A DNA stretch of 64,000 bases from Oceanidesulfovibrio marinus (GTDB lineage Bacteria > Desulfobacterota > Desulfovibrionia > Desulfovibrionales > Desulfovibrionaceae): NCBI RefSeq assembly GCF_013085545.1, contig NZ_CP039543.1:3131322-3195321 (forward strand), given 5' to 3'. Positions within the stretch are counted from its first letter, which is position 1; every line of letters starts with the position of its first letter. Below, in pieces: positions 35,354 to 36,117 of the stretch. Below the pieces are notes generated by a model. It searched no databases. It saw nothing but the letters and a program-made list of their open reading frames with translations, and was not told the DNA's origin. Made by a program: the position numbers and the translations under genes.

Positions 35354-35626
35354 GGCCGCCTCCTTGCCGAATGGTTTGGCAATGCGCTCGCGTTTTCGCG
35401 CTTCCTTACACAGCAGGCGGCAGAAAAATGCATCGAGGAAAAATCAGGGAGTGGTTCGGTCATGCCCGTGTGAGAAATCCGCCAGAGCTCTCTTTCCGCA
35501 AACTGCCGCTGGTCTGGATGCGCCTCTGCATCGACGGACACTGCACGCGCCCTGGCCATCCTTTGACTCGGCTCCCAAATATGGTACCCCATAACCATAG
35601 ACAAACATCTTCCATTGGAGCCGACA

Positions 35627-35827
35627 ATGCCTGCGACTATCTATGGAAAGTCTGGTTGACCGTACACCTCCAATGCCCGTGAGGCGTACCCCGGCCATGC
35701 ATACCTCGACGTGAAGCAGAAGAAGGACGCGCTGGAGAAAATGCTCAAGCTCTCCGGCGGAAAGCGGAAGGTGCCGGTCATCGTTGCGGACGACGGCGCC
35801 GTGACCGTCGGCTACGGCGGGTCCTGA
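35627..35827 (+). CDS. Small glutaredoxin-like selenoprotein (UXX-star type)
   Basis: A 66-residue frame from the ATG at 35627 (GGAG six bases upstream) to the TGA at 35825, interrupted by one in-frame TGA at 35657-35659. Reading that TGA as selenocysteine gives MPATIYGKSGUPYTSNAREA and ends with KVPVIVADDGAVTVGYGGS. The GxSG-U-PYT pattern is a glutaredoxin active site with Sec at the first redox position and Thr at the CxxC second Cys. KVPVIV and the Gly-rich end match the thioredoxin-fold cis-Pro region. A SECIS-like hairpin follows the TGA. This resembles the small UXX-star selenoprotein families as I remember them; standard gene finders would miss it. Confidence 0.8.
35657..35690 (+). promoter_or_regulatory. 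SECIS-like hairpin
   Basis: Directly after the in-frame TGA, GTAC (35662-35665) pairs with GTAC (35686-35689), then an A-C mismatch, then CCTC (35667-35670) pairs with GAGG (35681-35684), leaving a ten-base loop that contains GT. Distance and loop size fit bacterial SelB-binding SECIS elements, which also function inside the coding frame. Confidence 0.65.
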
Positions 35828-36117
35828 GGCGTGTAGCCGCCGGCCAGGTTGGTCGGCCCTTCACAAAAACCGATTGAACACGCCGGACCGGATCTTTCCG
35901 GGCTGGCTATGCGGATATGCGCGCCGCCCTTTCGGGCTGCAACGCACTGTTGCGTCCTCTTTTCCGCCTTGCGCAAAAAGGCCGGCGGCTGGTCTTGATG
36001 CGAAAAACCGGCTACATCGTTGCTGCCCGCAGTATATGGCGCCCTGCTCCGGATGCGCGTGGCCACAACGTCCTGTCCGGCGGCGTCCTCCATACACACT
36101 GCGCGGCAAAGGCAGCC

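Follow-up and report, generated by a model that had tools for sequence, protein, structure and literature searches.

A 69-residue double selenoprotein of UXX-star family 1 in Oceanidesulfovibrio marinus, with a second selenocysteine near its C-terminus and a hairpin beyond the stop codon

The window analyzed here is a stretch of 64,000 nucleotides of Oceanidesulfovibrio marinus (contig NZ_CP039543.1, positions 3,131,322 to 3,195,321). It carries a short gene in which a preliminary description had recognized a small glutaredoxin-like selenoprotein with a single selenocysteine (Sec). The features of the locus, in window coordinates, are the following.

35617..35620, + strand: ribosome-binding-like GGAG, six bases 5' of the ATG, read from the sequence
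35627..35836, + strand: coding sequence of a 69-residue double selenoprotein, stop included (NF041114 match; 74 members read)
35657..35659, + strand: TGA of Sec11, part of G-U-P-Y-T (of 73 aligned members, 33 have Sec and 40 have Cys here)
35673..35687, + strand: first SECIS-type hairpin, AUGCC-CGUGA-GGCGU, in frame, with its loop at 35678-35682 (comparative evidence)
35825..35827, + strand: TGA of Sec67, the stop in the preliminary description's frame (TGA in 74/74 members)
35834..35836, + strand: TAG, the stop of the frame (TGA, TAG or TAA at the same place in 72/74 members)
35839..35857, + strand: second SECIS-type hairpin, 3' of the stop, GCCGGCCA-GGU-UGGUCGGC (fold, shuffles, compensatory changes)

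With TGA read as Sec, the translation from the ATG at 35627 is MPATIYGKSGUPYTSNAREAYPGHAYLDVKQKKDALEKMLKLSGGKRKVPVIVADDGAVTVGYGGSU up to the second TGA (35825-35827). Beyond it come Gly-Val and then TAG, and the product thus ends in G-S-Sec-G-V. The active site U-P-Y-T at residues 11-14 is of the UxxT type, while U67-G-V-TAG places a Sec two residues before the stop; the use of this position as a family criterion is our own reading of the name UXX-star. The protein is devoid of Cys, which leaves Sec11 and Sec67 as the only residues of such kind. The start codon, the GGAG, the first in-frame TGA, the G-U-P-Y-T site and the KVPVIV segment had all been described before, and each is confirmed in the sequence. 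The 66-codon frame ending at 35825-35827 is true only if this TGA is a stop; the relatives point to a second Sec there and to an end at the TAG at 35834-35836. The main result is a correction of the first reading: the gene encodes 69 residues instead of 66, with Sec at both 11 and 67 rather than one Sec only, and a further hairpin lies beyond the stop codon.

The 69-residue product, with Cys written for Sec, matches the profile NF041114 with 105.2 bits vs. a cut-off of 72, residues 4-69 falling on profile positions 2-70 of 70. A 67-letter version in which TGA is read as Cys reaches 101.1 bits. The wider profile NF041212 gives 76.9 bits (cut-off 66), and glutaredoxin PF00462 is matched by the 67-letter version, again with Cys for Sec, over its gathering score (29.2 vs. 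22.9 bits). The score for the glutaredoxin 3 equivalog TIGR02181, 27.3 bits, is below its cut-off of 90. A comparison of the translation with UXX-star profiles had been proposed as a check, and it turned out positive, UXX-star family 1 being the gene's own family (105.2 bits). The product is, with hardly any room for doubt, a 69-residue member of NF041114, UXX-star selenoprotein family 1. In the accessible part of a 2026 review (PMC13188914), the only paper found in a literature search for NF041114, this family appears as 'distant Grx-like protein 1' with the motif UxxT and 2 Sec. There the review credits it to a 2008 marine survey, and it cites Haft and Tolstoy 2025 for UXX-star family 2 and the fusion family. 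No description of a Grx with UxxT was found in the accessible part of the 2008 survey (PMC2398784). Since the review already gives 2 Sec for NF041114, the kind is known, double Sec included, and the window gene is a new member of an already named family.

A single-sequence scan of genome contigs returned 6 relatives and was superseded by a search of the whole order, in which 73 of the 348 genomes, the window's own included, exceed the NF041114 cut-off. Together with one partial match below the cut-off these make up 74 members. The C-terminal codon is TGA in every one of them, and a stop follows three codons later in 72 (TGA 30, TAG 25, TAA 17), the exceptions being G065, which has CGT and a short extension, and G050, which has CAA. 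This conservation of the tail TGA and of a stop three codons on indicates that the TGA at 35825 encodes a second Sec. The N-terminal site is covered by 73 members, 33 of them with Sec and 40 with Cys; it lies outside G050, and the states of G032 (Sec) and G294 (Cys) were set by hand. Column 11 is invariant in a 72-row alignment where U is written as C, and from which the partial G050 and G286, a protein identical to another row, are omitted (the 73-row DNA alignment omits G050). A spacing of 55-57 codons separates the two sites in 71/73 members. On a weakly resolved tree, the N-terminal site switched between Sec and Cys at least 6 times. A lack of homologues with Cys or Sec at this position, or of a conserved downstream frame, had been named as grounds for abandoning the original claim. 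Neither came true, the tail and the stop being kept in relatives, and a small glutaredoxin-like selenoprotein with Sec at its active site is supported by both the relatives and the profile matches. As separate observations, the gene L084 (G032) has, if the sequence is correct, a third in-frame TGA at the position taken in relatives by the Gly of YGK, and in L124 (G065) CGT replaces the stop three codons after the C-terminal Sec, so that a short extension precedes TAG; the hairpin is kept there.

NF041212 was also run against a sample of the phylum, where 87 of 395 genomes exceed its cut-off. Sorted by eye, the best 30 loci comprise 18 with TGA and a U-x-x-stop tail, 2 tails having Ser or Thr for Sec, and 10 ordinary glutaredoxin-like proteins that end differently. 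At the tail site, Cys was found in 0/74 order members and in 0/20 tailed relatives among these best 30 loci. The window gene's own match in the order search was 90.5 bits, vs. 105.2 bits with Cys for Sec. Reading through TGA seems to lower the score of a match, and hence a Sec form of the tail should be harder to detect than a Cys form. It is about as likely as not that the indispensable residue of the family is the C-terminal Sec rather than the one at the active site.

The preliminary description placed a SECIS-like hairpin after the TGA at 35657. This claim is upheld in relatives and gains nothing from folding of the single sequence, which is close to chance: the 50-nt segment has z -0.55, with 54/200 shuffles as good, and the 40-nt segment z -0.77, with 45/200 shuffles folding as well. 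Counted from the T of TGA, a four-pair stem at nt 18-21/27-30 is present in 25/32 distinct Sec-members, vs. 4.4 +/- 2.0 upon synonymous resampling (0/1000 reach the observed number). The respective values for Cys-members are 7/40 and 5.5 +/- 2.1 (299/1000 reach it). The pair 18-30 joins two third-codon positions and is a standard pair in 25/33 Sec-members (shuffle mean 15.5, 0/2000) and in 16/40 Cys-members (shuffle mean 18.6, 1773/2000). The pair 21-27 is above shuffles in Cys-members too (23/40, mean 16.2, 22/2000), as is a slid control pair, 18-33 (7/2000), which implies that the shuffles carry some relatedness. The link between Sec and stem is partly confounded because Sec- and Cys-members are largely separate clades, and a tree-based pairs test of Sec vs. 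stem had no power.

The second hairpin, in the window alone, has a fold of -18.4 kcal/mol, with z -2.29 for 38 nt and -1.37 for 50 nt. With G required in the first two loop bases and a minimum score of 15, it was detected in 67/74 members, while 100 dinucleotide-shuffled sets gave a mean of 1.98 and a maximum of 6; by that score, 7/74 members are without a good second hairpin. The window hairpin itself scores 21, a value reached by 0/100 shuffles. RNAalifold on 73 members yields six pairs with compensatory changes at five, e.g., in 17 sequences at columns 30-44 and in 16 at 31-43. That this hairpin serves transcription termination instead of acting as a SECIS is highly improbable. A terminator would suit its location directly past the stop and its G+C richness. 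Against this, 5 or more T in the 8 bases after the hairpin occur in only 1/68 good hairpins, and such a scarcity of T-rich tails speaks against termination. Moreover, in an unrestricted search the loop starts at nt 20-26 from the TGA in 71/74 members, and the first loop bases are mostly G.

The genome is equipped for Sec decoding. Genes for selA (610.4 bits), selB (370.8) and selD (331.4) are each over cut-off, and a tRNA-Sec with anticodon TCA scores 81.8 bits. The suggested check of selA, selB, selC and selD thus came out in favor of the selenoprotein, and an absence of selB/selC, which would have spoken against it, did not come true. A second RF01852 match, at 47.1 just over threshold, is a tRNA-Ser by ARAGORN. 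The selD gene of this genome (G000:C1:325026-325961, L020) was read through one in-frame TGA and is therefore probably a selenoprotein gene itself. SelB is over cut-off in 68/73 carriers; it was not found at that level in G236 (95% complete) and in G229, G225, G215 and G221 (67-84%). Among 55 genomes without an over-cut-off family match, hand-picked for completeness, 53 have SelB over cut-off, and the co-occurrence of SelB with the family is thus uninformative.

The AlphaFold2 model based on 72 members (pLDDT 88.1, pTM 0.72) is glutaredoxin-like, with the element order E-H-E-H-E-E. The chains nearest to it are the thioredoxin-like BC3987, glutaredoxins and NrdH redoxins, with Z from 8.0 to 9.1 over residues 1 or 2 to 65. 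Foldseek against the PDB gave no match at E 0.001 or better (best E 6.6e-3), and no significant PDB hit came from a search with the single sequence (best E 0.083); the 72-row profile does find glutaredoxins in the PDB, with a best E of 2.3e-8. The tail with Sec67 is beyond the structurally aligned part of the model, and we infer that Sec67 lies close to the point at which a glutaredoxin would begin its last helix.

The surroundings of the gene were compared at the 74 loci using BLASTP clusters of ORFs of at least 70 aa within about 4 kb, or less where a contig ends. No neighbor conserved beyond 4 genera was found; the widest cluster covers 4 genera and 27 loci, 24 of which belong to genus g37. 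Partial synteny on both sides within g37 looks like genus-level gene order and not like an operon. As no cluster exceeds 4 genera, the context does not reveal a partner, and a weak association could be missed since the ORF picking is crude and includes wrong-strand frames in G+C-rich DNA. A HesB-like protein (TIGR01911) was considered as a partner, an idea taken from the HUGP/GUXX-star fusion, and was rejected: matches exist in 312/348 genomes, none over the cut-off. The window genome itself has two adjacent HesB-like frames at G000:C1:939989-940924, one with an in-frame TGA, both under the TIGR01911 cut-off.

The explanation that we favor, and hold to be reasonably probable as a whole, is a standalone double-Sec NF041114 gene with hairpin-aided recoding, whose product uses its two Sec as a redox pair. 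SelB and tRNA-Sec would decode UGA at codon 11 with the aid of the in-frame hairpin, and UGA at codon 67 with the aid of the second hairpin past the stop codon. The product would be a minimal glutaredoxin fold truncated about where the last glutaredoxin helix would begin. It may work as a CXXC-less thiol/selenol oxidoreductase whose redox residues are Sec67 and Sec11, the latter being Cys in many relatives. These would form a diselenide in turnover, or a selenenylsulfide in the Cys relatives, with Sec67 playing the part of the second Cys of CXXC. This pairing of Sec11 with Sec67 we give an even chance. The computed results cover the family, both recoded codons, both hairpins, the decoding machinery and the predicted fold, and the redox pair is inferred.

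Two simpler views of the gene account poorly for the data. That the TGA at 35825 is a normal stop and the protein has a single Sec, as was initially thought, agrees with the 101.1 bits already reached by the 67-letter version. Such a view is very unlikely in light of the tail TGA in 74/74 members, followed three codons later by a stop in 72/74, which is TAG or TAA in 42; besides, the hairpin past the stop covaries, and the NF041114 profile extends to the last residue. Two in-frame TGA in so short a frame might also suggest a chance frame or a decayed gene. With 73/348 genomes over the cut-off, both codons in place and covarying hairpins, this is close to inconceivable.

A more serious competitor to the redox pair is that the two Sec bind a metal, metalloid or organometal, and that the protein serves to trap or chaperone a heavy element. 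In its accessible part, the review (PMC13188914) names metal coordination, or contact with unknown substrates, as possible roles for the Sec of UXX-star proteins. A tail site that is TGA in 74/74 members and never Cys would suit a ligand as well, and the named family HUGP/GUXX-star joins a HesB-type domain to a UXX-star domain. HesB-type domains have a link to Fe-S proteins. The glutaredoxin fold and family resemblance argue against a metal role, and no conserved metal-handling neighbor was found in the crude scan of the 74 loci. Strict retention of the tail Sec fits the redox pair and the metal role alike. We regard the metal role as possible, though rather unlikely.

In 30/74 genes, e.g., L075 from the window's genus, one UGA is Sec and another UGA nine bases on is the stop, and a hairpin beyond both UGAs would have to tell Sec from stop. 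If the tail Sec is indispensable, the family would be a natural test of SECIS precision in UGA choice, and of selenium-only chemistry. The genes having Sec and stop UGAs nine bases apart are a ready-made system for SECIS spacing. The UXX-star family lends itself readily to experiments, given its small size, two Sec and naturally occurring Cys variants at the first site. Ordinary gene callers would miss or split such a gene, and even the Sec-aware preliminary description ended one Sec early.

As compared to known systems, the window gene is closest to NF041114 (UXX-star 1) itself, with which it has in common the UxxT site, the two Sec and the U-x-x-stop tail; nothing was found that sets the window copy apart. 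UXX-star families 2 and 3 (NF041211 and NF047338) and the HUGP/GUXX-star fusion NF045501 have the same domain but give weaker matches of 41.6, 40.5 and 40.4 bits, respectively, which do not reach the cut-offs of 100, 97 and 325, and the window gene is without a fusion. Glutaredoxin 3, mycoredoxin and NrdH redoxins resemble the product in fold (Z about 8-9, residues 1 or 2 to 65) and in the VP region. Unlike them, it has no CXXC, a Sec tail replaces the last helix, and its scores are far under their family cut-offs. In mammalian thioredoxin reductase, a Sec near the very C-terminus acts with a second redox residue. That enzyme is an unrelated protein, whereas the window product is one 69-residue domain; if the redox-pair mechanism is right, the two Sec tails would work in a similar manner.
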